From: an uncultured Eubacteriales bacterium
GTDB lineage: Bacteria > Bacillota > Clostridia > Christensenellales > Borkfalkiaceae
Assembly: GCA_902797515.1 (NCBI GenBank)
Contig: CADBSX010000085.1
Coordinates: forward strand, 1 to 13,404
DNA: 13,404 nt
Reading direction: 5' to 3'
A program made the translations under genes and the position numbers. Shown here in pieces: positions 1 to 13,404 of the stretch. A model generated the notes under the pieces. The model saw only the letters and a program-made list of their open reading frames with translations, did not search any database and was not told where the DNA came from. Numbering within the stretch: the first letter of the stretch is position 1; each line of letters opens with the position of its first letter.

Positions 1-694
1 AATCCTGCGGAACGGACGACGAACCGTGAAGTACTATCGGGAAAACGGGGAGGCGTTTGGATACCTCTTTTAAAATATCGAAACGGAGCGCGGGGGGAAC
101 GAGAATACCTTTTTCGTTCCTCGTGCATTGTTCAGGTTTGAATTTATACGCGCCGTGTGAAGTTCCGATCGCGATCGCGAGAGAATCTACGCCGGTTTTG
201 GAAACGAATTCCTCTACTTCCTCGGGGCGAGTGTAAGAGCCTTCGCCTTCGACTGCTACTTCGTCCTCGATTCCCGAAAGAGTTCCGAGTTCGCCTTCGA
301 CCACTACGCCGTGATCGTGCGCGTATTCCACGACTTTTTTCGTAAGTTCTATATTGTCTTTAAACGATTTCGACGAACCGTCTATCATTACGGAAGTAAA
401 TCCGCCGTCGATGCACGATTTGCACGTCTCGAAATCGGGACCGTGGTCGAGGTGAAGCGCGACGGGGATATCGGGGCATTCGATAACCGCCGCTTCGACG
501 AGTTTGACGAGATAGGTATGATTCGCGTACGCTCTCGCGCCTTTTGAAACCTGAAGGATCACGGGCGCTTTTTCTTCTTTGCAAGCCTCGGTTATTCCCT
601 GTACGATCTCCATGTTGTTAACGTTAAAAGCGCCGACGGCAAATCCGCCGTTGTACGCCGCTTCGAACATTTTCTTTGTAGTAACTAATGGCAT
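1..694 (-). CDS. fba: Class II fructose-bisphosphate aldolase, 5' part (C terminus off the left edge)
   Basis: This cytoplasmic zinc aldolase reversibly cleaves fructose-1,6-bisphosphate into DHAP and glyceraldehyde-3-phosphate in glycolysis and gluconeogenesis. The frame stays open from the start at 694 to the window edge and gives 231 residues of an expected roughly 280-310. Seen in the translation: GAFNVNN near residues 21-27, the catalytic/metal motif HLDHG at 81-85 (D83 catalytic, H84 metal), a second metal-site region GELG at 134-137, GTSHGAYK at 177-184 (H180 metal) and LHGSSSVP at 222-229 (H223 metal). These match the known FbaA/Fba class II pattern. The start is an ATG read leftward from 694, preceded by GGAGGT a few bases upstream on the minus strand. 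It is transcribed away from the TM1266-ABC operon. No defect is visible. A tagatose-bisphosphate aldolase is a less likely alternative within the same superfamily. Confidence 0.95.
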   Translation of the reverse strand, partial: MPLVTTKKMFEAAYNGGFAVGAFNVNNMEIVQGITEACKEEKAPVILQVSKGARAYANHTYLVKLVEAAVIECPDIPVALHLDHGPDFETCKSCIDGGFTSVMIDGSSKSFKDNIELTKKVVEYAHDHGVVVEGELGTLSGIEDEVAVEGEGSYTRPEEVEEFVSKTGVDSLAIAIGTSHGAYKFKPEQCTRNEKGILVPPALRFDILKEVSKRLPVFPIVLHGSSSVPQD

Positions 695-723
695 AATGAC
701 CTCCGAAAGTTTTTATCGGATAT

Positions 724-752
724 ATTATACAACATTTTTCGATTTATCGCAA
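724..752 (-). promoter_or_regulatory. Sigma-A type promoter for fba
   Basis: Read on the minus strand, TTGCGA (plus 747-752) and a perfect TATAAT (plus 724-729) are separated by 17 bases. The predicted start of transcription lies about 23 bases before the aldolase ATG, leaving room for the GGAGGT ribosome binding site. The -35 box matches four of six consensus bases. Confidence 0.75.
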
Positions 753-760
753 TAAAAGAA

Positions 761-789
761 TTGACAATATTTATTATTTTTTATATAAT
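761..789 (+). promoter_or_regulatory. Consensus sigma-A promoter for the TM1266-ABC operon
   Basis: TTGACA at 761-766 and TATAAT at 784-789 are separated by exactly 17 bases, a perfect match to the vegetative consensus. Transcription should begin near A796. The -35 box lies only 8 bases from that of the divergent fba promoter, so the two promoters are back to back. Such a strong promoter followed by a terminator before the first gene suggests that control acts after initiation. Confidence 0.85.
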
Positions 790-795
790 TTAATC

Positions 796-890
796 ACTGA
801 ATCGATGATCCGTTCGGAGAGGAAGCGTTTGAATTGAAATTATCCCTGCGGGTTTTTTACCCCGTCGGCGTAATTGAAATAAAGTGATTT
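796..890 (+). promoter_or_regulatory. Structured 5' leader of unknown class, candidate riboswitch or attenuator
   Basis: This untranslated leader lies between the predicted transcription start and an intrinsic terminator. Visible pairing: ATTA at 839-842 with TAAT at 871-874 encloses an inner CGGG (849-852) / CCCG (861-864) stem around a U-rich loop. AATCACT at 792-798 is complementary to AGTGATT at 883-889, but most of its 5' arm lies upstream of the predicted start, so this outer stem is uncertain. AATTGAAAT occurs twice, at 832-840 and 872-880. I could not match it to the conserved cores of TPP, FMN, SAM, THF, preQ1, cobalamin, glycine, fluoride or purine riboswitches as I remember them. 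Its location before a transporter operon fits a metabolite-sensing leader, which is inference. Confidence 0.5.
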
Positions 891-921
891 AACGCATACT
901 CTTTTCGGGTATGCGTTTTTT
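891..921 (+). terminator. Intrinsic terminator inside the leader, just upstream of the TM1266 gene
   Basis: AACGCATACTC (891-901) pairs with GGGTATGCGTT (907-917), including one G-U pair, around a 5-base loop, and the T run 916-921 follows. The run abuts the GAGGTGA ribosome binding site at 922-928, so transcripts must read through this hairpin to express the operon. It could also mark the end of a short RNA, but with no gene between the promoter and the hairpin a conditional terminator is the simpler reading. Confidence 0.8.
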
Positions 922-932
922 GAGGTGATATT

Positions 933-1181
933 ATGAAAATAGCGGTGATAGGCATCGTGATCGAAAAAGACAGGGGCGCGGCGGGCGCGGTAAACGAGAT
1001 ACTGTCGGATTACGGGGATTATATCGTCGGAAGAATGGGCGTGCCCGATAAGTCGAGGGATATTTACGTGATAAGCGTAATAGTTAAAGCGACGAACGAA
1101 ATAATTTCGGCGATGACGGGAAAACTCGGCAGAATATCGACCGTAACGGTAAAATCGGCGGTCACGAGCGTTGAAGTATAA
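933..1181 (+). CDS. TM1266-family protein, putative iron-only hydrogenase system regulator
   Basis: This 82-residue protein matches the small TM1266 family named for its linkage with [FeFe]-hydrogenase maturation genes; members have an ACT/NikR-C-like ferredoxin-type fold and no separate DNA-binding domain. Seen here: MKIAVIGIVIE at the start, the central NEILSDYGDYIVGRMGVP (residues 21-38) and a V-rich C-terminal strand (STVTVKSAV). Length and layout fit the whole family. The ATG has GAGGTGA at 922-928, just after the leader terminator. It is the first gene of an operon with an ABC importer that starts 28 bases downstream. No hydE, hydF, hydG or hydrogenase gene lies in this window, so the hydrogenase link rests on family knowledge. 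A small-ligand sensor that controls the adjacent transporter is an equally reasonable idea. Confidence 0.8.
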   Translation: MKIAVIGIVIEKDRGAAGAVNEILSDYGDYIVGRMGVPDKSRDIYVISVIVKATNEIISAMTGKLGRISTVTVKSAVTSVEV

Positions 1182-1209
1182 AAAATTTTAAAAGGAGTTA
1201 TTATATATT

Positions 1210-2244
1210 ATGAAAAGAAAAATTCTGGCTTTGTTTTTGGCGATAGCGACCGCGTTCGCGGTTATTTCGTGCTCTTCGGGAAAAAAGACGGAAAACACGG
1301 TTTTTACCGATTATTCGGTCTTTAAAGGCAAAACCGTCGTAACCGTCGGAGCGGGCGGTACGCCCGACGTCGTTTTAAGACACGTTCTCGCCGCGAAAGG
1401 TATAGAGATAAACGGGGAGGACGAAACCTCTACGGAAAAAGTCACTATCGACTACGCAAACAACTCGTCCGAGGTTATTCAGAAAATTAAAAACGGCGAC
1501 GCCGATTACGCAGTCCTTGGCGAGCCCGCGGTGACGACCGTCTGCGGCAAAACGGGGAAGTCGGTAATTCTCGATTTACAGTCGGCGTTTAAATCCGTCC
1601 ATAGCGACGTCAATTTCGTTCAGGCGGGATTGTTTGCTACTAATTCGGTAACGGCGCACACTTCGTTTTTGAACGCGCTCGCAAATAAACTCGGCGAAAA
1701 CAAAAAATACGTGTACGATAATAAATCCACGCTTAAAGATCTGCTCGCAAAACACGACAGTTCGCTCAAAAACACCGATTTTACCGTCGAACTTCTCGAC
1801 AGGTGCAATATAGGTATGAAAAAGGCGGGCGAAGTGAAAGCCGACGTCACGGCGTTTTTAAATACGGTAAAGGAGTTCAACGCGCAGCAGATAGGCGGTA
1901 AACTTCCGGAAAACGATTTTTATTACGATTATTCCGCCGAAAATTCTTCCGTTTACGGTAAAACATCTTTTACGATAGGCGTTGTTGACGGCGCGCCGTC
2001 GCTTTCGGTCGCGAATATTCTCGACGGATTTTCTTTTAAAGACGGTGAAACCGACGTTTCCGTATCTGTCGAACTCGTCGGCGGAGCGGACGCGATAAGA
2101 GCGGGACTTACAAACGTAAGCGGCTCGTTCGATATGGCTATCGCGCCGTTGAACCTCGCGTCCGCGCTCTATAACGCGAAACCGGAAAAGGGGATCAGAC
2201 TTTTATCCGTAAATATTTTCGGCTGTCTGTATCTTTTAGGATAA
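1210..2244 (+). CDS. ABC transporter substrate-binding lipoprotein with apparently circularly permuted domain order
   Basis: The 344-residue protein has a lipoprotein signal (MKRKILALFL..., hydrophobic to residue 20, lipobox AVISC with C21), so it should be anchored outside the membrane. It resembles NMT1/SsuA-like (COG0715-type) binding proteins of Clostridia, but the parts are out of order. Residues 38-140 (FKGKTVVTVGAGGTPD, then GDADYAVLGEPAVTT, then ILDLQSAF) match what is normally the middle. Residues 196-239 (DRCNIGM to GGKLPENDFYY) match the usual C terminus. Residues 252-344 (TSFTIGVVDGAPS, then GSFDMAIAPLNLASALYN, then NIFGCLYLLG) match the usual N-terminal part. Nothing seems lost, and total length is normal. 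The stop is followed two bases later by the permease ATG. AAGGAG near 1191-1196 is the ribosome binding site, rather far from the ATG. Ligand unknown; an HMP/thiamine-like or other small aromatic or sulfonate-like ligand is only a guess. Confidence 0.85.
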   Translation: MKRKILALFLAIATAFAVISCSSGKKTENTVFTDYSVFKGKTVVTVGAGGTPDVVLRHVLAAKGIEINGEDETSTEKVTIDYANNSSEVIQKIKNGDADYAVLGEPAVTTVCGKTGKSVILDLQSAFKSVHSDVNFVQAGLFATNSVTAHTSFLNALANKLGENKKYVYDNKSTLKDLLAKHDSSLKNTDFTVELLDRCNIGMKKAGEVKADVTAFLNTVKEFNAQQIGGKLPENDFYYDYSAENSSVYGKTSFTIGVVDGAPSLSVANILDGFSFKDGETDVSVSVELVGGADAIRAGLTNVSGSFDMAIAPLNLASALYNAKPEKGIRLLSVNIFGCLYLLG

Positions 2245-2246
2245 AA

Positions 2247-3032
2247 ATGAAAAAAGCAGGGAAAATTCTGTTTCCGCTGATCTCGGTATCTGCGGTGATA
2301 GCGATATTTTATATAATTGCGGCAATAGTCGGCGACGATATGATAATACCGTCGCCTACCGCCGTTTTCGCCGAATTTTTCTCGCTTTTTACTAAAAAAG
2401 TGTTTTATTCGGAACTTCTCGCAAATCTTTTGAGAACTCTTTTGAGTTTTACGGCGGCGTTTATCCTCGCGTCGGTTACGGCGATTTCAGCCGCAAGGAG
2501 CGAGACGATAAAAAGGCTTTTTTATCCGCTCGTAACAGCGGTGAGGGCCGTTCCGACGATGGCTATATTTTTATGGTGTCTTATAATTTTCCGTTCGAGC
2601 GTCAGCCCTATGGCGGTAGCGTTTATAGTAATCTTCCCGATGCTGTATTCCGCGGTTTACGGAGCGGTTTCTTCGAGAGATAAAAAACTCGACGAAATGG
2701 CAAAACTTTTCGGCGTAGGAAGGGCAAAAATTATTTTTAAAATGATTATACCGGACGTATGGAACAGGCTTTTTCCTCAATTTACGTCCGTTTTGTCGTT
2801 TACGGTAAAACTTATAGTCGCAGGGGAAGTGCTCGCCTATACGAAAACAAGTCTCGGCAGAGAAATGCAGATCGCGAATATCAATCTCGAAACCGCGAGG
2901 CTTTTCGCTCTTACCGTTGCAGTAATACTTTTAAGCGTGACGCTCGAACTTGCCGTAAAACTTCTGAACTACGCATTGTTGAGGTTGTTATATGGACGTA
3001 ATCGTAGAAAAATTAACGAAAAAATACGGTGA
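2247..3032 (+). CDS. ABC transporter inner-membrane permease (BPD_transp_1 family)
   Basis: The 261-residue permease should form the channel of the importer fed by the upstream lipoprotein and driven by the downstream ATPase. Several hydrophobic segments are visible (about residues 8-28, 64-82, 93-115, 120-141, 180-200 and 218-240). The cytoplasmic EAA-type coupling motif lies near 149-171 (DEMAKLFGVG followed by IIPDVW), as in SsuC/TauC-like permeases. Residues 34-40 (IPSPTAV) fit the usual IPSP-type periplasmic start of this family. It starts two bases after the preceding stop, so it is probably translationally coupled. Its last 41 bases overlap the ATPase gene, whose start lies inside it. 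Permeases of this type usually act as homodimers when only one is encoded, as here. The substrate cannot be told from the permease. Confidence 0.92.
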   Translation: MKKAGKILFPLISVSAVIAIFYIIAAIVGDDMIIPSPTAVFAEFFSLFTKKVFYSELLANLLRTLLSFTAAFILASVTAISAARSETIKRLFYPLVTAVRAVPTMAIFLWCLIIFRSSVSPMAVAFIVIFPMLYSAVYGAVSSRDKKLDEMAKLFGVGRAKIIFKMIIPDVWNRLFPQFTSVLSFTVKLIVAGEVLAYTKTSLGREMQIANINLETARLFALTVAVILLSVTLELAVKLLNYALLRLLYGRNRRKINEKIR

Positions 3033-3687
3033 AACTACCGTTTTGAACGATTTTTCCTCGTCGTTTACAGGGGGAAAAGTTTCGGTTATAATGGGAAAGT
3101 CCGGAATAGGTAAAACTACGCTTTTGAATTGTATAGCAGGTCTTGCCGATTACGAAGGAAAAATTTACGGCGTACAAAAAACGTCGTACGTCTTTCAGGA
3201 AGATCGACTTATTCCGAATTTAAGCGTTTACGACAACCTTGATTTTATATTAGATAAAAATATAAAAAAAGAGGAAAAACCGAAAATTATAAAAGAAATT
3301 CTGTGTGACGTAGAACTTGTCGATAAGGCGGCCGAACTTCCGGAAACACTGTCCGGCGGGCAGAAAAAAAGAGTGTCGCTTGCGAGAGCGTATATAGCCG
3401 GGCGAAATGTTATTCTTCTCGACGAGCCATTAAATTCTCTCGATACGGGGCTGAAAGCGAAAATGTACGCTCTGTTTATCCGTTTGACGGAAAAATTCGG
3501 CTCTACCGCAATTTACTGCACACACGATATCGACGAGGCTTTATCCGTCGCTGACGAAATAAAGATAATGGACGGGAAGGGAATAATTTATTCTCACGCC
3601 TTTGAAACGGAAAAGTCGGGAAGAGACGTTACCGACGCCGAAAGCGTGGAAGTAAGGAAAAAAATAATCAATATTTTATCGGAATAG
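2992..3687 (+). CDS. ABC transporter ATP-binding protein (nitrate/sulfonate/HMP-type importer)
   Basis: The 231-residue ATPase powers the importer encoded just upstream. All motifs are intact: Walker A GKSGIGKT at 35-42, Q-loop glutamine Q69 in VFQEDRLIP, signature LSGGQKKR at 120-127, Walker B VILLDEP at 140-146 with catalytic E145, D-loop SLD at 149-151 and H-loop histidine H178 in CTHD. VFQEDRLIP resembles the VFQ-RLLPW motif of SsuB/TauB/ThiZ-like ATPases, which fits the binding-protein type. The ATG at 2992 lies inside the permease gene (41-base overlap, different frame), so coupled translation is likely. It ends the operon. No clear terminator follows before the mazF-type gene, so some read-through into it is possible. 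Confidence 0.95.
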   Translation: MDVIVEKLTKKYGETTVLNDFSSSFTGGKVSVIMGKSGIGKTTLLNCIAGLADYEGKIYGVQKTSYVFQEDRLIPNLSVYDNLDFILDKNIKKEEKPKIIKEILCDVELVDKAAELPETLSGGQKKRVSLARAYIAGRNVILLDEPLNSLDTGLKAKMYALFIRLTEKFGSTAIYCTHDIDEALSVADEIKIMDGKGIIYSHAFETEKSGRDVTDAESVEVRKKIINILSE

Positions 3688-3696
3688 TATAAATAT

Positions 3697-3702
3697 TATA
3701 AT
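3697..3702 (+). promoter_or_regulatory. Possible -10 box for the mazF-type gene
   Basis: TATAAT occurs here, just after the ABC operon. The best -35 position 17 bases upstream is only TTTTAT, so the promoter is weak or false. No other convincing promoter lies in 3688-3795, and read-through from the ABC operon is an alternative source of transcripts. Confidence 0.3.
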
Positions 3703-3795
3703 ACGGTCAAAAATTAAATATGCAATCACCTGAAAACTTCTTATTTACATAAAATAAAGCGTGGGGTGTTGCCAAAAAATTTACAGGACCTGATT

Positions 3796-4149
3796 ATGAT
3801 AAAAAGAGGAGAATTGTATTATGCGGATCTCAGTCCGGTCGTCGGAAGCGAACAGGGCGGAATCCGTCCCGTTTTAGTCGTCCAGAACGACGTCGGCAAT
3901 AAATACAGTCCCACGGTTATCGCAGCGGCGGTAACGAGTAAAATAAACAAGGCAAAATTGCCGACGCATATCGAACTAAACGCTTTGGAATACGGTTTGA
4001 ATAAGGATTCCGTCGTTCTTCTCGAACAGATACGGACTTTGGATAAGAGAAGATTAAAAGAAAGAATAGGCGAGTTACCTGTTTCGACTATGAAAAAGGT
4101 GAACGAAGCGCTGCTTATAAGTCTCGGTTTTTCCGTTAAGACTTATTAA
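3796..4149 (+). CDS. mazF: MazF/PemK-family endoribonuclease toxin (NdoA/EndoA-like), no adjacent antitoxin
   Basis: This 117-residue protein closely follows Bacillus NdoA/EndoA, an RNase that cleaves single-stranded mRNA at short sites and whose activity is blocked by a MazE-type antitoxin. Seen: [20 protein letters not shown] at the start, the RPVLVVQND strand (conserved Arg after the G-rich loop), the conserved S/T region [20 protein letters not shown], and [18 protein letters not shown] chose the ATG at 3796, with AGGA at 3785-3788 seven bases away. It gives the length and the MIKRG start usual for the family. A GTG at 3766 would add ten residues unlike the family. The gene before it is the ABC ATPase; no ribbon-helix-helix or AbrB-like antitoxin ORF fits in the 108-base gap or downstream. 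A strong terminator follows. Confidence 0.92.
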
Positions 4150-4155
4150 TAGGCT

Positions 4156-4204
4156 AAAAATAAAGATTTTATCCCTGAAAAAAGGCTAAAATCTTTATTT
4201 TTTT
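4156..4204 (+). terminator. Terminator after the mazF-type gene
   Basis: AAATAAAGATTTTA (4158-4171) is perfectly complementary to TAAAATCTTTATTT (4187-4200) around a 15-base loop, followed by more T residues. The stem is A/T-rich but 14 base pairs long. Because of the flanking A and T runs it may work in both directions. AGGCTAAAA is repeated at 4151 and 4183. Confidence 0.75.
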
Positions 4205-4222
4205 GTATTTTATCAAAAATGA

Positions 4223-4251
4223 TTTACAAATTTAACCGAATATGGTAAAAT
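4223..4251 (+). promoter_or_regulatory. Promoter of the HTH-NAD+ synthetase gene
   Basis: TTTACA (4223-4228) and TAAAAT (4246-4251) are separated by 17 bases, with an extended TGG (4243-4245) directly before the -10 box. The predicted start near 4258 leaves a short leader of about 22 bases that carries the AGAGGTGA ribosome binding site before the ATG at 4280. Confidence 0.7.
4231..4250 (+). promoter_or_regulatory. Candidate operator dyad within the nadE promoter
   Basis: TTTAACC, six bases, then GGTAAAA form an inverted repeat with six of seven pairs matching. It fills the spacer and overlaps the extended -10 element, a position where a bound repressor would block RNA polymerase. The fused XRE domain of the gene product makes autoregulation an obvious hypothesis. 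Only one copy was noticed, so this is inference from position and symmetry. Confidence 0.35.
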
Positions 4252-4279
4252 ATAATCGGAAAACAAAAGAGGTGACATT

Positions 4280-6415
4280 ATGAATCTGGACGAAAAATTA
4301 CGAAAATTAAAAGATATATCCGGATATACCGCAAAGGAAATTTCTTTCAGGTGCGGAATACCGCTCGGAACGCTCAATAAGATATTTTCGGGATCGACTA
4401 AGAGCGTTAAAACCGAAACGCTTAAAAAGCTTTCTTCCTTTTTCAACGTTCCTATCTCTTATTTTATCGAGGAAAACGAAGAAGAAAGTAAACGGAGCGA
4501 GGAAATTAACGTACCTTTAGGCTTTGTAAGAGTAGCGGCGGCAACGCCGAGGCTTAAACTCGGCGACGCGGACGCAAACGCGACGGAAATAATAAAGACG
4601 CTTGAAAACCTTTCGGAGAAGAAAGTAAAGGTCGCGGTCTTTCCCGAATTGTCTCTTTGCGGCTATACTTTATCCGACTTGTTTTATTACGACGCAGTTT
4701 TAAAAAACTGTGAAAAATCTCTTGAAAAGATAAGGATTTTCAGTTATAATTACGAAATGATTTTTTTCGTCGGTTGTCCCCTTATGAAAGACGGATCGAT
4801 ATATAATACCGCGGTTGCGGTATCGAAGGGAAAAATACTCGGCGTCGTGCCGAAAAAATACGTTCCGAACTACAACGAATTTTATGAAAAAAGGCATTTC
4901 TCAGGCGCGCCGACGGAACTTTCGGATATTACCGTAAACGGAAAAAAATATCCGTTCGGAACGAATATAATTTTTTGCGACGCGGTAAATCCCGATCTCA
5001 AAATTTCCGCGGAAATATGCGAAGATCTCTGGACGGTTGAATCGCCGTCAAACGAGCACTGCGTAAACGGCGCTACTTTGATCGTAAACTTATCCGCGAG
5101 TAACGAAATAATAGGAAAGGCGGAATACAGAAGAGCTATCGTTTCAAATCAGTCGGGCAAATGCGTTTGCGCTTACGTTTATTCGGACGCTGGACTTTAC
5201 GAATCCACTACCGACTTGATTTTTTCAGGACATAATATAATTGCCGAAAACGGTAAAATTTTATCCGAAACAGAGTTGTTTTCATACGATACCGCAATAG
5301 CGGACGTCGATATCTCGTTTTTGGAATTTGAAAGGCGCAAATCGTTTAATTACGATTTTGAAAAGGGGCAGTATATTCGCGTGGATTTTTCTTTAAAAAC
5401 GGAAAATGCGGAATTTATCCGCGAATTTCCGAAAATGCCTTTCGTGCCTTCTGAAAACGCGGAACTTTCCGCCAGATCCGAACTAATCGTAAATATGCAG
5501 GCTAACGCGCTCGCAAGGCGAGTTTCGCATACGAAAGCGAAAACGCTCGTAATAGGTATTTCCGGCGGTCTTGACAGCACTTTGGCTCTTCTGTCGGCCT
5601 GTAAAACCGTCGATCTTCTCGGCAGGAGCAGAAAAGATATTCTCGCTATAACGATGCCTTGTTTCGGAACGACGGAACGGACGAAAAACAATTCCGTATC
5701 GCTTGCGGAAGAACTCGGCGTTACTTTAAAGACGATCGATATAACCGAAAGCGTAAAAAGGCATTTCGAAGATATAGGTCAGAGCGAAAATTCGCAGGAC
5801 GTTACGTACGAAAATTCGCAAGCGAGAGAGAGAACGCAGGTCTTAATGGACGTCGCGAACAAGACGGGCGGCATAGTAATCGGTACGGGCGACCTTTCCG
5901 AACTTGCTCTCGGCTGGGCGACGTATAACGGCGATCATATGTCGATGTACGGCGTAAACTGTTCCGTTCCTAAAACTCTCGTTAAACATCTCGTAAGTTA
6001 TATGGCGAAAAAAACGGGAGGAAAAGCGGAAGAAATTTTAAACGATATTCTTTCAACGCCCGTAAGCCCCGAATTACTCCCCGCGAAAGACGGCGAGATC
6101 GCGCAAAAAACTGAAGATATCGTAGGACCTTACGTGCTTCACGACTTTTTCCTCTATTATTTTGTCAGGATGGGATACGCGCCGTCTAAAATTTATAAAA
6201 TCGCAGTAAAAACCTTTGAAAACGAATTTGACTGCGATACGGTTTACAAGTGGCTCGGTAACTTTATCCGCAGATTTTTCACTCAACAATTCAAAAGGTC
6301 GTGTATTCCCGACGGCGTTAAACTCGGCAGCGTTTCGCTTTCGCCTCGCGGGGATTGGCGTATGCCGAGCGACGTTTCCTTCGATACTTGGATAAAAGAC
6401 CTTGAAAGCGTATGA
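4280..6415 (+). CDS. nadE: Glutamine-dependent NAD+ synthetase fused to an N-terminal XRE-type HTH domain
   Basis: The enzyme makes NAD+ from deamido-NAD+, ATP and glutamine-derived ammonia, the last step of NAD+ synthesis. Domains of the 711 residues: XRE/Cro-like HTH at about 1-65 (AKEISFRCGIPLGTLNKIF contains the two HTH helices, then ETLKKLSSFFNVPISYF); acidic linker 65-76; nitrilase-type glutaminase about 80-370 with the triad E123 (FPELSLCGYT), K192 or K193 (PKKYVPNYNEFYE) and C247 (AEICEDLW); synthetase about 400-711 with the PP-loop SGGLDS at 428-433 and GTGDLSELALGWATYNGDH at 535-553. Ordinary two-domain NadE proteins begin at what is residue 80 here (GFVRVAAATPRL). The frame is open throughout, the ATG has a strong AGAGGTGA, and no start codon with a ribosome binding site lies at the domain border, so the fusion looks real. 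Both catalytic halves appear intact. Confidence 0.93.
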   Translation: MNLDEKLRKLKDISGYTAKEISFRCGIPLGTLNKIFSGSTKSVKTETLKKLSSFFNVPISYFIEENEEESKRSEEINVPLGFVRVAAATPRLKLGDADANATEIIKTLENLSEKKVKVAVFPELSLCGYTLSDLFYYDAVLKNCEKSLEKIRIFSYNYEMIFFVGCPLMKDGSIYNTAVAVSKGKILGVVPKKYVPNYNEFYEKRHFSGAPTELSDITVNGKKYPFGTNIIFCDAVNPDLKISAEICEDLWTVESPSNEHCVNGATLIVNLSASNEIIGKAEYRRAIVSNQSGKCVCAYVYSDAGLYESTTDLIFSGHNIIAENGKILSETELFSYDTAIADVDISFLEFERRKSFNYDFEKGQYIRVDFSLKTENAEFIREFPKMPFVPSENAELSARSELIVNMQANALARRVSHTKAKTLVIGISGGLDSTLALLSACKTVDLLGRSRKDILAITMPCFGTTERTKNNSVSLAEELGVTLKTIDITESVKRHFEDIGQSENSQDVTYENSQARERTQVLMDVANKTGGIVIGTGDLSELALGWATYNGDHMSMYGVNCSVPKTLVKHLVSYMAKKTGGKAEEILNDILSTPVSPELLPAKDGEIAQKTEDIVGPYVLHDFFLYYFVRMGYAPSKIYKIAVKTFENEFDCDTVYKWLGNFIRRFFTQQFKRSCIPDGVKLGSVSLSPRGDWRMPSDVSFDTWIKDLESV

Positions 6416-6437
6416 AAATAAAAATCTGATTTTATAA

Positions 6438-6473
6438 CGCGACCGCCTTTCGGCGGTCGCGCTCTTTATTTTT
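6438..6473. terminator. Strong hairpin terminator between convergent nadE and gerA operon
   Basis: CGCGACCGCC (6438-6447) pairs perfectly with GGCGGTCGCG (6452-6461) around TTTC, followed on the plus strand by CTCTTTATTTTT. It lies 22 bases past nadE and 22 bases past the gerAC stop on the other strand, so it probably serves both. The T run is better on the plus strand. Confidence 0.88.
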
Positions 6474-6483
6474 CCTCGATTTC

Positions 6484-7683
6484 CTACATTTTCGCACTCT
6501 GTTCGGTTTTGCACTTTATCGTTACGTCGATTTCCGTGTCGGCAAGTACCGTTGACTTTAATTTCTCGTAACTGAAATAGTGAAATTTATACAGAGTCTC
6601 TTTAAAGTCGAAGAGGTCGCAATCAGCCTCTTTTATCTTGATAAGCATATTTTCTATCGTGGTTTTAATTCGGTTTTCCGCCTCTTTAAGAACTTTTTCT
6701 TCAATTTCCGCCGTGGTAACGAGTTCTTTTACGGGAACGCTGTCGTAAACGTCCTCTATCTGGCAAAGAAGATGAAGATTTACTTCAAACCGAGGCTTGC
6801 CGTCTTTAACGTAAAAAGCGTATTTTTTATAGGATTCGTTCAATCCGAAAATCACGTCGGTTTTTTTGCCGTTAAATTCTATTCCGTCAAGTTCTATAAG
6901 CGTATCAATGGAATTTTTTCGCTTAATATTGAAAAAAAGCGTTTCCAGAGACGTGAGTTTACCGACGTTCACGCCCTTCTTGAATATAAGAGTTTCGGTT
7001 GCGTCGAATATATATTGTTCTTCCGATTTATTTTCTTTCTGTCCCGACTGACCGCCTTTGTTGTCCTGCGATTTCGTTTCGAGTTTTATCCTTCTTATAA
7101 AGGGCATATATCCGCTTTCCGACTTGGAATAATATCCCTTTGAAAATTCTTTTACGTCGGTATCGGCTATTTTATCAGATTTCGCTATGTCCTTGCTCAA
7201 TATTTTCTCTATGGCAAGAGAAGATATCGAGTCGAGAGGAGTACAGGAAGAAAGCACTTCTTCCGCCTTGTCGTCGCACGCCGCTAAAATCGCCGAATCT
7301 TCGATTTTATCGCTTCTTATAAAATAATTTATGTGATACATAATATCCGATTTAAGCGTCGTTTTCCCTAATAAAATCAGGTTACAGAAAGAAAGCATAG
7401 GATACCAGCCCGTATTTATGCCTATGTTATCCAGCGCGGCGGCGACGGTTTTTCCCTTTCCCGTGACAAGCGCGTCCTCATTCGATATCGTCGTGCTTGA
7501 CGCTTGCGGTATGGCGATCTGCGCGCTTAACGTATATTGATTTTGCTCTTCTTCGTAATCGATCCCGAGCGCGACTATAATAGCGGTCCTTTCTATATCG
7601 ACGAGCCCGAAGTCGTTCGTAAAAAAGAGCAGCATTGCGACGGATATTAAAATAAGGGATAATTTCGATCGGATAAATTTCAT
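6484..7683 (-). CDS. gerAC: Ger(x)C-family spore germination protein (GerAC-like), lacking the usual lipobox cysteine
   Basis: GerAC-type proteins are the third subunit of germinant receptors in the inner spore membrane, normally as lipoproteins. This 399-residue protein has the family plan: hydrophobic N terminus about 8-22, then LVDIERTAIIVALGID at 27-42 (family: ...RELNDLAIVLGMGID), KGKTVAAAL near 76-83, NLILLGK at 101-107, a polar Lys/Gln/Gly-rich linker at about 201-222 and the C-terminal Ger(x)C domain ending in a conserved-looking helix and strand. The GC-W/-Dxx lipobox normally found before the RELN-like motif is absent: residues 20-27 read FFTNDFGL. It may therefore be held by an uncleaved N-terminal membrane helix instead. 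Its ATG overlaps the gerAB stop by four bases (ATGA), and it ends the operon. Confidence 0.88.
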   Translation of the reverse strand: MKFIRSKLSLILISVAMLLFFTNDFGLVDIERTAIIVALGIDYEEEQNQYTLSAQIAIPQASSTTISNEDALVTGKGKTVAAALDNIGINTGWYPMLSFCNLILLGKTTLKSDIMYHINYFIRSDKIEDSAILAACDDKAEEVLSSCTPLDSISSLAIEKILSKDIAKSDKIADTDVKEFSKGYYSKSESGYMPFIRRIKLETKSQDNKGGQSGQKENKSEEQYIFDATETLIFKKGVNVGKLTSLETLFFNIKRKNSIDTLIELDGIEFNGKKTDVIFGLNESYKKYAFYVKDGKPRFEVNLHLLCQIEDVYDSVPVKELVTTAEIEEKVLKEAENRIKTTIENMLIKIKEADCDLFDFKETLYKFHYFSYEKLKSTVLADTEIDVTIKCKTEQSAKM

Positions 7684-8756
7684 TTCGATACTCGTCCTTT
7701 ATTGAAAAATACAGTTAAAAACGGCAAAACGTAAGCCATAAACAGGATAAACCATATTAAATAATTCTGTATAAAACCGAAAGTATAGAAATAGACGTTT
7801 TCGGTTGTAATCATTATTATCGCCATAAGCGCGTTTACTCCTATCGCGGCGAAAATCCTGTGCTTTATAGGGAAAACTTTTAAAATGCAGTAAGTCGAAA
7901 ACAAAAGCGGAATGGCTGTGGCGTAAACGCTTGAAATTATATACGCAAAATTCGCAATATAATCTATTCTTCCGATATTCGCGAGGGCGACGCTGTATTT
8001 GCCCATCCTTATCGGCGCGAAAAACTGCCTTACCGTAAGAGGTCCGAATTCCGCGTAAAGTACCATGATAAAAAATATGACCGCTATCGCCGCCGCTACA
8101 AAACTTAAAATGATCTTTTTCTTATAGTGTTTTTCCTTTTTGAAATGCCCGAGCATAAACAAAAGGTACGAACTGTCCGCATACCACATTGCGCTTTTCA
8201 GTGCTCCGACGCCTATTTCCGAAGGTTTTACGCCTATCACGGGCAGTAATTCCGAAAATTTAGCGGAAGGGACGGCAAGGGAAATAAGAATCACGTAAGC
8301 GAAAATCGTGAGCCATATCGAAATATCCGCGCATCTTCCTATCGCTCTTATGCTTTTATATGAAAAAAAAGAGGAAAAAACAAAAAAAAGTATAAAAATA
8401 GACAAGCCCGAAACGGTCTGATAGAGTGAAGTTTCAATATAGTTTTTCTGTTCGATCAGCGGGACGTATGCCTTTACGAAGAAAAAAATTCCGTAAAATA
8501 AATAAACGGTTTTCGCCGTTTTATCCCCGACGTTTACGCTTATTATTTCATAAAGAGATTTGCCGCCGTATTTATCGTTTAAATGCAGGACAAATAAAAG
8601 TACCATTCCGTCCGCGAGAAAATTAAGCGCGGCGGATATCCAGAACGATTCTTTTGCAAAACCTGCGGTAACAGCAGGCATTACGAGAAGTTTTACGACT
8701 GTCGTAAACGCGGTGAAAGTAAAACATATTTGTCTGACGTTTATTTTTTCTGTCAT
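7680..8756 (-). CDS. gerAB: GerAB-family spore germination permease
   Basis: The 358-residue protein is almost entirely hydrophobic with about ten predicted membrane segments (for example around residues 10-30, 38-58, 80-98, 110-130, 142-162, 185-203, 215-235, 270-295, 305-322 and 330-350). This is the layout of GerAB/GerKB proteins of the APC transporter superfamily, which bind the germinant within the receptor. N-terminal KINVRQICFTFTAF resembles the common start of the family (I--rQ----i). It overlaps gerAA and gerAC by four bases each (ATGA junctions), implying coupled translation and equal stoichiometry. Confidence in the family comes from topology, length and operon context more than from signature residues. 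Confidence 0.88.
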   Translation of the reverse strand: MTEKINVRQICFTFTAFTTVVKLLVMPAVTAGFAKESFWISAALNFLADGMVLLFVLHLNDKYGGKSLYEIISVNVGDKTAKTVYLFYGIFFFVKAYVPLIEQKNYIETSLYQTVSGLSIFILFFVFSSFFSYKSIRAIGRCADISIWLTIFAYVILISLAVPSAKFSELLPVIGVKPSEIGVGALKSAMWYADSSYLLFMLGHFKKEKHYKKKIILSFVAAAIAVIFFIMVLYAEFGPLTVRQFFAPIRMGKYSVALANIGRIDYIANFAYIISSVYATAIPLLFSTYCILKVFPIKHRIFAAIGVNALMAIIMITTENVYFYTFGFIQNYLIWFILFMAYVLPFLTVFFNKGRVSK

Positions 8757-10192
8757 TTTCCGTCAACCTTTTGTCTGATTTTATTTTTTGCACGGAAAGT
8801 GAGAGGTCTTTTTTCCATGCCTATAACGTTATCCATATAAAGTCCGTCTTGCAGATCGTTAAATATAAGCGGAGAATACGGGGCAATATACGGCGAGCCG
8901 TAATTTTCCTGTGTAGAAAGATAACAGATAAGAAAAGCGGCAAAAAGAAGTACGCCGTAAACGCCTACGGAACCGGAAATTATCAAAATCACGAACCGTA
9001 AAACCGAATTCGTTTCGATAAGTTCGGGAATAGCGTAAATACTTATTCCGGAAAGGGCCATTATAAGTATGGCGGGAGTCGAAACTATGCCCGCGTTGAC
9101 CGCCGTTTCGCCGAGAACGAGCGCGCCGACTACCGCGAGAGCCATGCCGACGTATTTAGGCATCCTTACGCTCGTTTCGTTCAGTATTTCAAACGTTAAA
9201 AGTATGAAAAACATCTCGATACTCGGTGAAAACGGGATATCTTTTATTCCGTTTACTATCGTAAGAAGAAAATTAAGCGGAATAAGTTGCAGGTGAAAAA
9301 GTTGCGCCGCGACGAAAAGTCCCGGAAGGAAAATCGAAAAAACTATCGCGATGACTCGCAAAAAACGCAGAAGATTTGCTCTGTAAGTCGAAACGTAATA
9401 ATCTTCCGCACTCTGAAAATCTTCGAGAAGAACGTAAGGAAGAGTTATAACGAAAGGCGAGCCGTCAACGATTATTCCGACTCTTCCTTCGAGCATCCTT
9501 TCCATAAGTACGTCCGGTCTTTCGGTCGCGCCGGATTGTTTGAAAAGAGAAGTTTTTCTCTCGTTCAGAAATTTTGACACGTAAGAACTGTCGGGGATTC
9601 CGTCAATATTGATTTTTTTGAGTTTTTCCCGAACTTTTTTGACGAGCGTCGGATTTGTAAGCCCTTCGATATAGGTAAACGCGATCGCGGTTTTAGTATA
9701 TTTTCCCGCCGTTAATATTTCAACTTTGAGGTCGGAAGATTTAAGATACCGCCTCAAAAGACTTAAATTCGACTGTATGCTTTCATTAAAACCGTTTCTC
9801 GGACCTCTGACCGAAAGTCCTGTCGGAGGCTCGGAAATGGCGCGCACCTGAAATTTTTTCAGATCGACGGATATTCCTTTTCTCTTTCCGTCGAAGAGAA
9901 TAACGGCGTGCCCCGAAAGAATATCGTCAACGCACTCGTTTATCTTTTGTTTTATCTTTACGTTGGCGAGAGTGATGCTTTTAGCCATATTTCTGACCAA
10001 AGTCAGGCTCTCGAACTTCTGAAGAGGAGCGATAACTTCGAGTCCGAGAAGTTCTTTATCCGTTATCGAATCGACGTATATCGCCGCCGCTTGTACGTCT
10101 CCGACGGTAAACTCGAAAAAAATGATGTCGTCGCTGCCGAGTATCGCTTTTAATGCTTTAAGATTGTAATCGAGTTCGGGCGTTATATTCAT
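8753..10192 (-). CDS. gerAA: GerAA-family spore germination protein
   Basis: The 479-residue protein is the A subunit of a germinant receptor in the inner spore membrane. Seen: a soluble N-terminal part of about 270 residues with SEPPTGLSVRGPRNGFNESI (family RGPR-GF at 129-135), MLEGRVGIIVDGSPFVITLP at 233-252 (a hallmark of GerA proteins), and a C-terminal membrane part of about five segments containing FEILNETSVRMPKYVG (334-349) and VLGETAVNAGIVS (359-371). All are standard for the family, and length is normal (family about 480-520). The ATG at 10192 has no recognisable SD in the preceding bases, which are A/T-rich. No other start gives a better fit. I could not find a convincing sigma-G promoter upstream, though forespore expression is expected for such operons. 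Confidence 0.95.
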   Translation of the reverse strand: MNITPELDYNLKALKAILGSDDIIFFEFTVGDVQAAAIYVDSITDKELLGLEVIAPLQKFESLTLVRNMAKSITLANVKIKQKINECVDDILSGHAVILFDGKRKGISVDLKKFQVRAISEPPTGLSVRGPRNGFNESIQSNLSLLRRYLKSSDLKVEILTAGKYTKTAIAFTYIEGLTNPTLVKKVREKLKKINIDGIPDSSYVSKFLNERKTSLFKQSGATERPDVLMERMLEGRVGIIVDGSPFVITLPYVLLEDFQSAEDYYVSTYRANLLRFLRVIAIVFSIFLPGLFVAAQLFHLQLIPLNFLLTIVNGIKDIPFSPSIEMFFILLTFEILNETSVRMPKYVGMALAVVGALVLGETAVNAGIVSTPAILIMALSGISIYAIPELIETNSVLRFVILIISGSVGVYGVLLFAAFLICYLSTQENYGSPYIAPYSPLIFNDLQDGLYMDNVIGMEKRPLTFRAKNKIRQKVDGK

Positions 10193-10257
10193 AATTTAAA
10201 TTATCGGTTTTTTGAAAAAAATTTATTATCGAATTTTTAAGTTTTACAGGATAACGT
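10193..10257. other. Divergent intergenic region between gerAA and the HPr-kinase-like gene
   Basis: This A/T-rich stretch must hold the gerA operon promoter on the minus strand. I saw no good sigma-A or sigma-G match and no SD before gerAA. The plus-strand promoter begins at its right end. Confidence 0.4.
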
Positions 10258-10286
10258 TTGATATTTATGCCAAAATATGATAAAAT
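10258..10286 (+). promoter_or_regulatory. Promoter for the HPr-kinase-like/S26 peptidase pair, with almost no leader
   Basis: TTGATA (10258-10263) and TAAAAT (10281-10286) are 17 bases apart, with an extended TGA (10278-10280). Transcription should start near 10293, only about five bases before the chosen ATG at 10298, so the mRNA would be nearly leaderless. Confidence 0.65.
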
Positions 10287-10297
10287 TTTACATAAGT

Positions 10298-10999
10298 ATG
10301 ATATACGATATTGCGGATTTGAGAATAAACATAGAAAATAAACTTCCTTTTACCGCTCGGTTTTGCGAAGGTTATCTTTCGCCCGATCAGGAAAGCGAGC
10401 CCGCTTTTTCGGTAAAAGTCACTAACGAGCAGTTTTTCAAAGAAAAAGAAGTTTCGGATAAATTTTCCGACGGATATATTGAAAATATCTGTCTTTACAG
10501 AAATATCTGCAATCTTATGCCGTATTACGACAGGTTTTTACTTCACTCGTCCGTCGTGGAATACGATGGAAAGTGCTACGCATTTTTAGGACACAGCGGG
10601 GCTGGGAAGTCAACTCACTCGCGCCTCTGGCTTAAATATCTCGAAAACGCGAAAATCCTTAACGGCGACAAGCCGATCGTCCGCGAGTCGGAAGAAGGTT
10701 ATATCGCTTACGGCACTCCGTGGATGGGCAAAGAAGGCTTGGGCTATAAGGGAAAAGGGAAGATATACGCGATCTGCTTTATAGAGCAGGCGTTGAAAAA
10801 CGAGATAATCCCTTTAAGCGCGTCTTTGACCGCCGACAGGCTGTTTTCTCAGATTTTATTGCCCGACGACGCGGAAAGCGTTATGAAAACGATGACTATG
10901 GCGGACAACTTTATCAAAAGAGTGCCGTCTTTCGTGCTGAAATGCGATATATCGGAAGAGGCTTTCAGAACTTCTTTCGACGTTTTGACGAGGTGCTGA
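10298..10999 (+). CDS. HPr-kinase/phosphorylase-like P-loop protein (function unknown)
   Basis: This 233-residue protein resembles the HprK C-terminal domain-like proteins of Firmicutes, which share the HPrK/PEP-carboxykinase nucleotide-binding fold but lack the HPrK N-terminal domain. Seen: LLHSSVVEYDG (residues 81-91, the strand that precedes the P-loop in this family), Walker A GHSGAGKST at 98-106, an acidic Walker-B-like NGDKP at 123-127 and GTPWMGKEG at about 139-147. I prefer ATG 10298 to the in-frame ATG at 10277, because 10277 falls inside the predicted -10 element and neither has an SD. It sits one base before an S26-type peptidase. Related kinases in lasso-peptide and other RiPP clusters phosphorylate the peptide product, but no precursor is visible here. 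It is not the housekeeping HprK. Confidence 0.75.
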   Translation: MIYDIADLRINIENKLPFTARFCEGYLSPDQESEPAFSVKVTNEQFFKEKEVSDKFSDGYIENICLYRNICNLMPYYDRFLLHSSVVEYDGKCYAFLGHSGAGKSTHSRLWLKYLENAKILNGDKPIVRESEEGYIAYGTPWMGKEGLGYKGKGKIYAICFIEQALKNEIIPLSASLTADRLFSQILLPDDAESVMKTMTMADNFIKRVPSFVLKCDISEEAFRTSFDVLTRC

Positions 11000-11000
11000 T

Positions 11001-11471
11001 ATGGATAATGGTATTTTAAAAACGGATATCGTCGAAATCCTCAAAGAAAACGGGAAATACGTCGGGACGACCGTAGGCGTTAGTATGCTGCCGATGATAA
11101 AGAGCGGCAAAGACGTAGTTGTAATCGTTCCGAAAACCGAAAAACTTAAAAAATACGACGTCGCTTTATACATCAGGAAAGACGGCGCTTACGTGTTGCA
11201 CAGAGTTTTACAGCCCGTCGAAAAAGGTTACGTGATAAGGGGCGACAACTGTTATTCCGACGAACACGTTTCCGAGGACACCGTTATAGGCGTTCTTGAA
11301 GGTTATTTCAAAGGCGAAAAATACATTGACTGCAACACCGACGAAAAATACAGAAAATACGCCGAAAAAAGAGTGAAAAATTATAAATTGAGGCGATTTT
11401 TCGTCGTTCCGCGGCGAAAAATCTTATCGTTCGCGCACCGAGTTTACCGAAAAATATTCAAAAAAAAGTGA
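11001..11471 (+). CDS. S24/S26-family peptidase, signal-peptidase-like with Ser/His arrangement
   Basis: The 156-residue protein has the signal-peptidase fold motifs: GVSMLPMI with the nucleophile S28, KKYDVALYI (box around 50-58), VLHRVL with H67 where the bacterial LepB type has its catalytic Lys, and RGDNCYSDEHV at 80-90. A Ser/His pair is typical of the SipW/archaeal-eukaryotic subtype. Unlike SipW or LepB it shows no clear N-terminal membrane anchor; the C-terminal part (about 110-156) is highly basic, with an arginine/lysine-rich tail that could bind membrane or nucleic acid. The start follows the previous stop by one base, with GAGGTG upstream, so the two genes are coupled. Together the pair looks like peptide maturation or export, but the substrate is not in this window. 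Confidence 0.75.
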   Translation: MDNGILKTDIVEILKENGKYVGTTVGVSMLPMIKSGKDVVVIVPKTEKLKKYDVALYIRKDGAYVLHRVLQPVEKGYVIRGDNCYSDEHVSEDTVIGVLEGYFKGEKYIDCNTDEKYRKYAEKRVKNYKLRRFFVVPRRKILSFAHRVYRKIFKKK

Positions 11472-11501
11472 AATCCGAATTTTTCGGATTTTTTTATTTT
11501 T
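11471..11501 (+). terminator. Terminator after the S26 peptidase gene
   Basis: AAATCCGAA (11471-11479) pairs with TTCGGATTT (11483-11491) around TTT, followed by TTTTATTTTT. The 5' arm begins at the last base of the stop codon. Confidence 0.85.
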
Positions 11502-11514
11502 CTATTTAAATCAT

Positions 11515-11543
11515 TTGACAGACGCAATACTTCGTGATATGAT
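11515..11543 (+). promoter_or_regulatory. Promoter of the PadR-DUF1700-DUF4097 operon with possible PadR operator
   Basis: TTGACA (11515-11520) and TATGAT (11538-11543) are 17 bases apart, with extended TGA at 11535-11537. AATAC (11526-11530) and GTATT (11544-11548) form a short inverted repeat with 13 bases between them that straddles the -10 box. Autoregulation is usual for PadR proteins, but this repeat is short and could be chance. Confidence 0.75.
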
Positions 11544-11567
11544 GTATTATGTAAAGAGAGGTATGAA

Positions 11568-11885
11568 ATGGACGCACAATTAAAACGCGGGCTATTGGAC
11601 GTTTGCGTTTTGTCCGCCATAAAAAACGACGAATCATACGGCTATAAGATCATAAAGGATATGAAACCGTACTTGGAAATGTCGGAATCGACGTTATATA
11701 CTATACTCAAAAGGCTTGAAACGGCGGAACTTCTGACGGTAAGAACGGCGGAACACGACGGCAGGCTGCGGAAATATTACAAAATAACGAAAAACGGGCT
11801 GAAACGCATAGAAAACTTCAAAGAAGAGTGGAGAGAAGTAATGTCGATATATAAATTTGTCAGTAAGGAGAGCGGCAATGAATAA
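11568..11885 (+). CDS. PadR-family transcriptional regulator
   Basis: The 105-residue protein is a short (s1-type) PadR winged-helix regulator. Seen: LKRGLLDVCVLSAIKN (residues 5-20), SYGYKIIKDM (23-32), the recognition region MSESTLYTILKRLETAELLT (38-57), and the wing with DGRLRKYYKITKNGLKRI (64-81), all typical of PadR. A short C-terminal helix for dimerisation follows. The start has GAGAGG eight or so bases upstream. Its last eight bases overlap the next gene. In Firmicutes this regulator type is commonly placed before DUF1700 and DUF4097 genes, and it usually represses its own operon until an inducer, often an envelope-active compound, is bound. The inducer cannot be told from sequence. 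Confidence 0.93.
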   Translation: MDAQLKRGLLDVCVLSAIKNDESYGYKIIKDMKPYLEMSESTLYTILKRLETAELLTVRTAEHDGRLRKYYKITKNGLKRIENFKEEWREVMSIYKFVSKESGNE

Positions 11886-12480
11886 GCAAGAATTTCTCTG
11901 CGAGATAAGAAAAGGATTGAAAGGCCTTCCCGAAAAAGACGTCGAAGAGCGAATAAGTTTCTACGGCGAGATGATAGACGACAGGATGGAAGAAGGCAAG
12001 ACCGAAGAACAAGCGGTCGCGGAAACGGGAACGCCTGACGAAATTGTTTCGGGAATAATCGCGGATATTCCTTTATCAAAGATAGTAAAAGAGAAGATAA
12101 GACCGAAGCGGTCGCTCAAAGTTTGGGAAATCACTCTTTTTATTTTCTTTTCCCCGATACTTTTTTCGCTTTTGATTGCCGCGATTGCGGTTGTTTTCTC
12201 GCTTTTTACAGTTTTGTTTTCTCTCGCGATATCTCTTTACGCGGTCGATCTCGCCGTCGCGGCGGCGTCGCTTTACGGTTTGTTTTCTTTTGTCGTAATA
12301 TCGGCGAGAGGAAATCCGTCTGTCGGAGCGGCGTTTCTCGGTATAGCGATATTCTGTATCGGAGCGGCTATACTTTTGTTTTACGGCTCGAACTATGTTT
12401 TGAAAAAGTTTTTCGTTCTTTTAAAGAATACCGCGCTTTTATTTAAGAGATCCGTCATCGGAAAGGAGAAAATGAAATGA
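11878..12480 (+). CDS. DUF1700 (HAAS-type) membrane protein
   Basis: The 200-residue protein starts with a charged helical HAAS-like domain (residues 1-65: MNKQEFLCEIRKGLKGLPEK, ISFYGEMIDDRMEEGKTEEQAV, and GTPDEIVSGI), then has about four membrane segments (about 81-105, 108-130, 133-150 and 152-172) and a basic C-terminal tail. I chose ATG 11878 because AAGGAG at 11865-11870 is seven bases upstream and the family normally begins MN/MK-EFL; the TTG at 11857 would add seven residues and lies upstream of the SD. It overlaps both neighbours, eight bases with padR and an ATGA with the DUF4097 gene. The molecular role of DUF1700 is unknown; it probably partners with the PadR regulator and the DUF4097 protein at the envelope. 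Confidence 0.88.
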   Translation: MNKQEFLCEIRKGLKGLPEKDVEERISFYGEMIDDRMEEGKTEEQAVAETGTPDEIVSGIIADIPLSKIVKEKIRPKRSLKVWEITLFIFFSPILFSLLIAAIAVVFSLFTVLFSLAISLYAVDLAVAAASLYGLFSFVVISARGNPSVGAAFLGIAIFCIGAAILLFYGSNYVLKKFFVLLKNTALLFKRSVIGKEKMK

Positions 12481-13404
12481 AAAAAGTTTTTATAATTACG
12501 GCAATTGTTCTGATGGCGATAGGTTTTTCCGTTTTTTTCGGCGTGATGGTCGTTCACGGTTTCGATTTTTCATGGCTCGACGCGCGTGATTTTGAAACGA
12601 ACACCTATAATATAACCGAAAATTTTGACGATATGACTATCTGCGTAAAAACCGCGGACGTTTATTTTATGCCGTCCGAAAACGAAAAGTGTAGCGTTAT
12701 ATGCTTTGAAGAAGTAAAACGGAAACACTCCGTCGAGGTGACGGAAAATACGCTCAATATAAAAGCGGAAGGCGAAAAGGCGTGGTACGAATACGTCGGC
12801 TTTTCGATCAAAAGTCCGTCAGTTACCGTAAAACTTCCTCTCAAAGTTTATAAAAATCTTTCGGTAAAAACGAGTACGGGCAATATAAGCGTCGCAGAAA
12901 ATTTTATTTTTGAGAACGTTTCTTTAATCGGCTCTACCGGCAACGTAAACTTTCTTTCGTCCGCAAGCGACAATATAACGATAAAAACGAGTACGGGAAA
13001 CGTGAATATATCCGATTCTGCCGCAAAAGATCTCGATATAACCGTTTCAACGGGGAATATTTCGGTCAATTCTGCGGTTTTTCAAACGATAAACGCAACC
13101 GTAAGCACGGGCAACGCTCGGTTTACAGGTATTAGATGCAAGACCTTTTTTACGGAAGGATCGACGGGAAATATCGTTCTTAACGACGTACTCGCGGAAG
13201 AACGAATTTATATAAAAAGAAGTACGGGCAATGTGAAATTCGACGGTATCGACGCCGCGGAAATCGAAGTAAGAACGTCAACGGGCGACGTAAAAGGCTC
13301 TTTGCTTTCGGGGAAAATTTTCTCGACTGACTCCGATACGGGAAAAATCAATGTTCCGGAGTCTGCTGCGGGCGGGAAGTGCGATATTAAGACGAAAACG
13401 GGAG
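12477..13404 (+). CDS. DUF4097-family repeat protein, partial at the right edge
   Basis: The frame is open from ATG 12477 to the window end (309 residues visible). It overlaps the DUF1700 stop by ATGA and has AAGGAG at 12463-12468. Residues 4-27 form one hydrophobic segment, a membrane anchor or signal; the rest should lie outside the cell. After about residue 128 comes a series of strand-turn units each with an STGN-like turn. DUF4097 proteins are predicted to form a beta-helix and occur in PadR/DUF1700 operons. The many short V/I strands support a solenoid. Function is not known; a role in envelope stress or antibiotic response is inferred from the operon type. The C terminus lies beyond the window. 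Confidence 0.9.
   Translation, partial: MKKVFIITAIVLMAIGFSVFFGVMVVHGFDFSWLDARDFETNTYNITENFDDMTICVKTADVYFMPSENEKCSVICFEEVKRKHSVEVTENTLNIKAEGEKAWYEYVGFSIKSPSVTVKLPLKVYKNLSVKTSTGNISVAENFIFENVSLIGSTGNVNFLSSASDNITIKTSTGNVNISDSAAKDLDITVSTGNISVNSAVFQTINATVSTGNARFTGIRCKTFFTEGSTGNIVLNDVLAEERIYIKRSTGNVKFDGIDAAEIEVRTSTGDVKGSLLSGKIFSTDSDTGKINVPESAAGGKCDIKTKTG
12873..13404 (+). repeat. Ten-unit coding repeat, STG-centred, period 19-20 residues
   Basis: Within the DUF4097 gene the turn motif S/D/K-T-G recurs at residues 133, 153, 172, 191, 210, 229, 249, 268, 287 and 307, so every 19 or 20 residues (57-60 bases). Most copies read (K)(T)STGN followed by a hydrophobic-x-hydrophobic strand; the last three drift to STGD, DTGK and KTG. 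Nucleotide identity between units is low outside the motif, so this is an old protein repeat rather than recent DNA duplication. Confidence 0.85.

Follow-up and report, generated by a model that had tools for sequence, protein, structure and literature searches.

We found that the predicted substrate-binding protein of an ABC importer in an uncultured Eubacteriales bacterium (Borkfalkiaceae) is circularly permuted, at the same locus, from a type II (SsuA/NMT1-like) binding protein of standard order, as its block order, its position in gene trees and its synteny show. Comparison of homologous operon genes across the family further shows that such permutation recurs, with cuts at what are predicted to be three different loops of lobe 2. 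Our preferred reading, to which we give a probability of about 0.87, is that a lipid-anchored binding protein of an ABC importer has been permuted repeatedly in this family from a standard type II ancestor. We term the genes homologous because the family holds several old lineages of the gene, and argue strict orthology only where the flanks agree (genus groups g1 and g5). The window, meaning the whole stretch of DNA analysed, comprises 13,404 nucleotides (assembly GCA_902797515.1, contig CADBSX010000085.1, positions 1-13,404, forward strand).

The permuted gene and its operon

The open reading frame at 1210-2244 (+) encodes a lipoprotein of 344 residues, predicted to be a substrate-binding protein. 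It opens with a signal peptide and, read from the sequence by the usual lipobox pattern, the in-frame lipobox VISC with the lipid-anchor Cys21 (1210-1272, +). Residues 22-32 (1273-1305, +) form a new tether from the signal peptide to lobe 2, homology to standard relatives beginning at residue ~33. By sequence alignment, residues 33-239 (1306-1926, +) constitute lobe 2, running from strand beta1', its first, to the end of the old C-terminus GGKLPENDFYY, and correspond to residues ~134 to 338 of standard relatives such as P0008. A new 14-residue linker, DYSAENSSVYGKTS (1927-1968, +), then joins the old C-terminus to the old N-lobe; its length is 14 in all six form-A proteins, as we designate this arrangement, and its likeness to the old tether is equalled by 75 of 1000 shuffles. 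The remaining residues, 254-344 (1969-2241, +), align with the old N-terminal block, comprising the lobe 1 strands and the LYLIG strand, which is now C-terminal. The order along the chain, as the initial annotation had given it, is signal and lipobox, FKGKTVVTVGAGGTPD, VLGEPAVTT, CNIGM, GGKLPENDFYY, FTIGVVDGAP, MAIAPLNLASALYN and NIFGCLYLLG, which ends the protein, every block being present once in one intact gene.

That annotation had proposed a circular permutation from the motif order of related clostridial binding proteins; our comparison, based on retrieved sequences, bears the proposal out. Among 80 proteins (the window protein and 79 database matches), the block matching residues ~251-344 precedes that matching residues ~33-239 in 74 and comes last in six, namely the window protein and P0002-P0006, of which P0006 is incomplete (244 aa). 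Aligned with head-to-tail copies of standard relatives, the window protein gave one continuous alignment across the duplicate junction, to residue 344, with all five relatives tried; duplicated P0007 scored 337 bits continuously, against 249 and 110 for the halves apart. The block order and these continuous alignments establish form A as a real circular permutation, and since its chain departs from the standard order, we file the window protein as a permuted descendant rather than as an ordinary SsuA/NMT1-like member. The standard relatives are ~60% identical to it, some of them at the same operon position. Of the 15 genomes in the host genus, 13 gave a match and two carry the permuted gene, that of the window and G004, whose gene is cut by a contig end. 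An assembly or binning artefact might be suspected of a 260-contig draft genome whose fellow carrier G004 has its gene at a contig edge. The same order in G004 and in other sequences at 97, 81, 63, 60 and 70% identity argues against this, as do the 85 of 398 family genomes with a permuted order, some of them on contigs >300 kb (C6 of G329 and C1 of G184), and the like linker lengths and purifying selection of the permuted genes, leaving an artefact with a negligible chance of being the explanation.

The gene lies in an ABC importer operon. A TM1266-family small protein is encoded upstream (933-1181, +; TIGR03959, 103.5 bits against a cut-off of 60.8), and Pfam matches identify an ABC permease (PF00528; 2247-3032, +), the single permease gene, and an ABC ATPase (PF00005; 2992-3687, +). 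The window and the standard loci of G005, G012, G013, G008, G002 and G029 have a common order: an aldolase on the opposite strand, then the TM1266-like, binding-protein, permease, ATPase and EndoA-like genes, where the aldolase and EndoA-like genes are named provisionally from their sequences. The permease adjoins the binding protein in all seven distinct standard-order loci (the G009 contig ends within it), and the ATPase is present in six of the seven, G009 ending before it. The G004 contig ends inside the form-A gene, with the TM1266 and aldolase genes on the other side. In the window's genus, the permuted gene occupies the standard gene's place, and a second copy of the binding-protein gene was not found in the window's genome (84% complete). 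A riboswitch was sought upstream, and the window gave no Rfam match at the gathering score.

Two local features of this locus may be recorded. The permuted gene ends in TTA GGA TAA, which puts AGGA just before the permease start codon (2236-2249, +), so that its new 3' end may supply the permease's ribosome-binding site; the standard gene of G005 ends in TTTTATATATAA, with ATG directly after. The two form-A genomes share 94% identity in the neighbouring aldolase (2-694, -; compared with L044 and L045-L051), and the aldolase of G029, from another genus, is 84% identical to it, but the six genus members with the standard order have at this position an aldolase of only 63-64% identity, a pattern that would suit replacement of this neighbour in one of the groups.

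Cut sites and predicted fold

The homologous operons of the family hold three permuted forms, A, B and C, with different cuts. Single matches of window residues ~70-344 in other genera, seen in a scan of 398 genomes, led to form B, which was read in all 16 such loci fetched (L058 and L059 being near-identical). Its chain runs from signal and tether through beta2' to the old C-terminus, then linker, lobe 1 and the first strand-helix unit of lobe 2; form C begins just before beta4' and ends past the GEP/PEP segment. On the predicted secondary structure of the window model, onto which the B and C cuts were mapped by alignment, the form-A cut precedes beta1' (strand 42-46), the form-B cut falls between alpha1' (helix 51-62) and beta2' (strand 78-83), and the form-C cut between alpha3' (helix 107-115) and beta4' (strand 119-122). 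All three are thus lobe 2 loops leading into strands, and in such folds these loops would be remote from the ligand cleft. Down to its last residues the old C-terminus is preserved, and it then runs into the linker bridging the old ends, whose length is 11-16 residues in 51 of 52 measured cases and 30 in one (a script delimited the linker in 52 of 65 cases). Of the 19 columns that reach >=90% conservation across 42 standard rows and carry a residue in permuted rows, the permuted rows keep 18.

The operon setting accompanies the other forms as well. Several loci of both stop at contig ends; the permease lies beside all 16 form-B genes, the ATPase beside 11 and the TM1266-like gene beside six, and for form C the corresponding counts are 13, 12 and 14 of 14 genes. 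The ATPase was not found beside five of the 16 form-B genes, three of which (L057, L061 and L065) have kilobases of sequence left. One form-B gene (L134, in G185) contains a single in-frame TAG and is either a pseudogene or a sequencing error.

AlphaFold predicted a confident two-lobed fold for the window protein (pLDDT 85, pTM 0.81, from an alignment in which only the six form-A rows cover the moved block), and 90.7 pLDDT and 0.82 pTM for a standard relative. The best VIA matches of the window model are type II proteins, and the permuted protein is predicted to keep the fold of its unpermuted relative. The initial annotation had gone further, placing the cut where the chain first crosses between the lobes and expecting fewer crossings and possibly altered opening dynamics. 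The form-A cut is indeed near the first crossing in sequence, but the permuted model matches type II proteins end to end in a lobe-exchanged register, as expected if the LYLIG strand lies in lobe 2 and both crossings remain; the loss of one of the two crossings is therefore unsupported and very unlikely. From these structural alignments, with partly provisional numbering, the form-A cut instead appears to fall within lobe 2, so that both crossings would be kept and the roles of the lobes exchanged. The lobes themselves are pseudo-symmetric (hhalign 90.9, score 39.1; the highest score among 40 column shuffles was 21.7).

Under repeated permutation from a standard ancestor, a constrained, working gene would be permuted recurrently within an ABC importer that has one permease and one ATPase. 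The protein would bind a small molecule in its cleft and pass it to the permease. Each event would rejoin the signal peptide to the new start, and with it the membrane anchor would move from lobe 1 to lobe 2. Such changes may be tolerated because of the pseudo-symmetry of the lobes and because the permease is probably a homodimer: a single permease gene suggests a symmetric membrane part, so that either lobe could face either subunit. Opening, closing and ligand delivery should then stay as before, and the likely route would be a tandem duplication whose outer pieces were then lost. A bolder proposal, which we regard as tentative and would not expect to hold, is that chain order is evolutionarily labile and partly reversible, and that the anchor shift alters reach or docking on the permease, serving as a recurrent adaptive switch.

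Distribution and recurrence across the family

A match at E<=1e-12 was recovered in 364 of the 398 family genomes. By profile coordinates, 83 of the 398 have a full-length permuted match of form B (64) or C (19), counting G158, whose match is truncated by the end of its contig, and G185, whose gene has an internal stop. Form A occurs in two. Two matches, like those of standard-order genes, are present in 272 others, the order being read only where loci were fetched or listed, and seven have a single partial match, standard by coordinates in G148 and G258 and a partial piece in G091, G217, G268, G398 and G035. Reading 124 loci from sequence gave 59 standard, 2 form-A, 49 form-B and 14 form-C genes, the form-B cut falling in the same loop in every locus read. 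A block-order script applied to 210 collected proteins (the window protein and 209 from databases, the second database list being the best 120 of 282) returned 132 standard, 72 form-B and 6 form-A orders. Standard and permuted genes coexist in seven genus groups (g1, g2, g5, g6, g7, g9 and g10), read from sequence in six of them and, for the standard genes of g10, inferred from two-match rows. The 93 genomes of genus g7 divide into 37 with form B, 53 others with a match, of which 40 were read as standard, and 3 without. Of 391 genomes sampled from the class, 108 gave a match; among the matches listed, the permuted ones are G022 (form C) and the window (form A), and nine further genomes show one partial match each.

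Permuted and standard orders are intermixed on the gene tree. These trees were built after dropping near-identical rows at thresholds of 85, 72 and 78%, the last for the 109-row tree of genome loci, and their change counts do not separate gains from reversions. In the 109-row tree, 14 changes are required for the four orders, 13 for the standard order against all others (at least 10 forced by well-supported branches), 11 for form B (at least 8) and 2 for form C. On a tree of 94 proteins from databases and genomes, the standard order requires 12 changes and form B 11, with at least 9 and at least 8 forced by well-supported branches, and a subset of 69 of the 109 rows requires 16. When the two halves of the protein were analysed apart on those 69 rows, the changes numbered 16 and 15, and fewer of them were forced (5 and 7 for the standard order). 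Form A is one clade within standard relatives in the trees holding most of its rows (support 99/95 with seven rows and 100/92 with four, P0075, P0089 and P0090 being omitted from both); in the 109-row tree, which holds two form-A rows including the truncated G004, it takes two changes (support 87/24) and forms one clade in 11% of bootstrap trees.

The sharing of one loop by every form-B locus read, together with the size of several form-B clades, would also suit a single origin of form B, the interleaving then reflecting reversions or gene conversion between co-resident copies. Co-residence can occur, as G383 (58% complete), one of eight further genomes, carries a form-B and a standard gene (L217 and L225), with a permease beside each and, for the standard gene, its own ATPase too. 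The two G383 genes are, however, just 28% identical, so no exchange is shown, and the standard one is nearest another genus group (42.6% to G248) and belongs either to a second operon or to contamination. None of the 26 genomes checked earlier carries both orders, though one of them, G350, carries form B twice. A single form-B clade was rejected in the 69-row subset (AU p 0.000165, lnL difference 735), in a test that needs its group named beforehand, form B having been named by gene order and not from the tree. The halves separately give similar counts, which also leaves gene conversion of one half, considered as a candidate, unsupported; and reversions would themselves be repeated circular permutations. 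We consider a single origin improbable and retain recurrent permutation.

Close pairs and known permutants

The closest standard/permuted pair, G420 (standard) and G421 (form B) of genus g5, shares 75.7% protein identity. Its two coding blocks, 77.7% identical at the DNA level, stand in swapped order, and the flanks on either side are collinear (82.6% upstream, 74.1% downstream); the form-B gene of G419 and the standard gene of G018 agree with this pattern. The dN/dS ratio is 0.089 for the two form-B genes (G419 and G421) and 0.158 for the two standard ones (G420 and G018), low values in both pairs that indicate purifying selection on both orders; for the window and G004 it is ~0.19, at a dS of 1.78. 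Form-B proteins outside the group of the first aligned row are only 24-32% identical to that row, against as much as 75.7% between form-B and standard proteins within one group, in agreement with the recurrence seen on the trees. The distance between form-B groups would also fit permuted proteins having taken a new ligand or a non-transport role, with permutation marking the change. The closeness of such standard/permuted pairs, the conserved columns that permuted proteins keep and the permease that their genes adjoin all point the other way, and we judge a change of role quite unlikely.

A tandem or fused intermediate was sought in 216 loci, many overlapping: none of 211 two-block ORFs, many of which are the same gene in more than one locus, holds a block twice. 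One-block ORFs comprise the G004 gene at its contig end and the pair in L134 parted by a stop. Long open frames in G385, G412, G420 and G307, considered as fused intermediates, each proved to be a single standard-order gene.

Natural circular permutations have often been inferred between distant relatives, where the trail has gone cold. Among the closest known systems here are 3hn0 (Parabacteroides BDI_1369) and SsuA/NMT1-like type II binding proteins. TpMglB-2 (Tp0684) is described as a natural circularly permuted, lipid-anchored ABC binding protein, for which a 'Type Ic / Cluster Bc' was proposed, and its authors likewise raise anchoring as a possible reason (PMC4990184). As presented there, its sugar-binding fold is of type I (cluster B), and the permuted strands are those of the N-lobe, which gives a fourth crossover (PMC4990184). 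The window protein falls outside that class, which is defined by these three features; the proteins described here differ in their type II fold, their three lobe 2 cut sites and their repeated changes among close homologues. The permuted relation of OpuAC/ProX to molybdate-binding proteins and CysB, as reported for CPSARST, is structural, at <24% identity (PMC2395249), whereas standard and permuted homologues here share up to 75.7% at the same locus. DNA methyltransferases and swaposins are given as classic natural permutations, with permutation by duplication as the standard model and intermediates documented for the methyltransferases (PMC3320104), in contrast to the 211 two-block ORFs above. 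A search of full-text literature, at the level of titles and opening lines, returned no permuted SsuA/NMT1-like binding protein and no repeated permutation at one locus. What appears to be new is the repetition among close homologues, the use of three cut sites and the existence of pairs young enough to be compared at the DNA level.

An uncultured family of gut Clostridia thus opens a rare protein rearrangement to direct comparison, and its loci offer natural replicates for asking which loops accept new termini, what linker the old ends require, what the genetic intermediate is and whether a shifted anchor makes a difference to an ABC importer. There is also a consequence for annotation. The window protein has no Pfam match at the gathering score, NMT1 and related families included; the standard relative P0008 reaches 22.2 against PF09084 (cut-off 20.5), and one form-B protein matches PF09084 and PF13379 above their gathering cut-offs piecemeal, in swapped order and each over part of the protein only.

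Elsewhere in the window, the gene at 4280-6415 (+) encodes a glutamine-dependent NAD(+) synthase with an extra N-terminal stretch like a helix-turn-helix repressor (residues 1-75; RstR-like match of 20.5 bits, under its cut-off of 80). Three consecutive genes at 6484-10192 (-) resemble a GerA-type spore germination operon.
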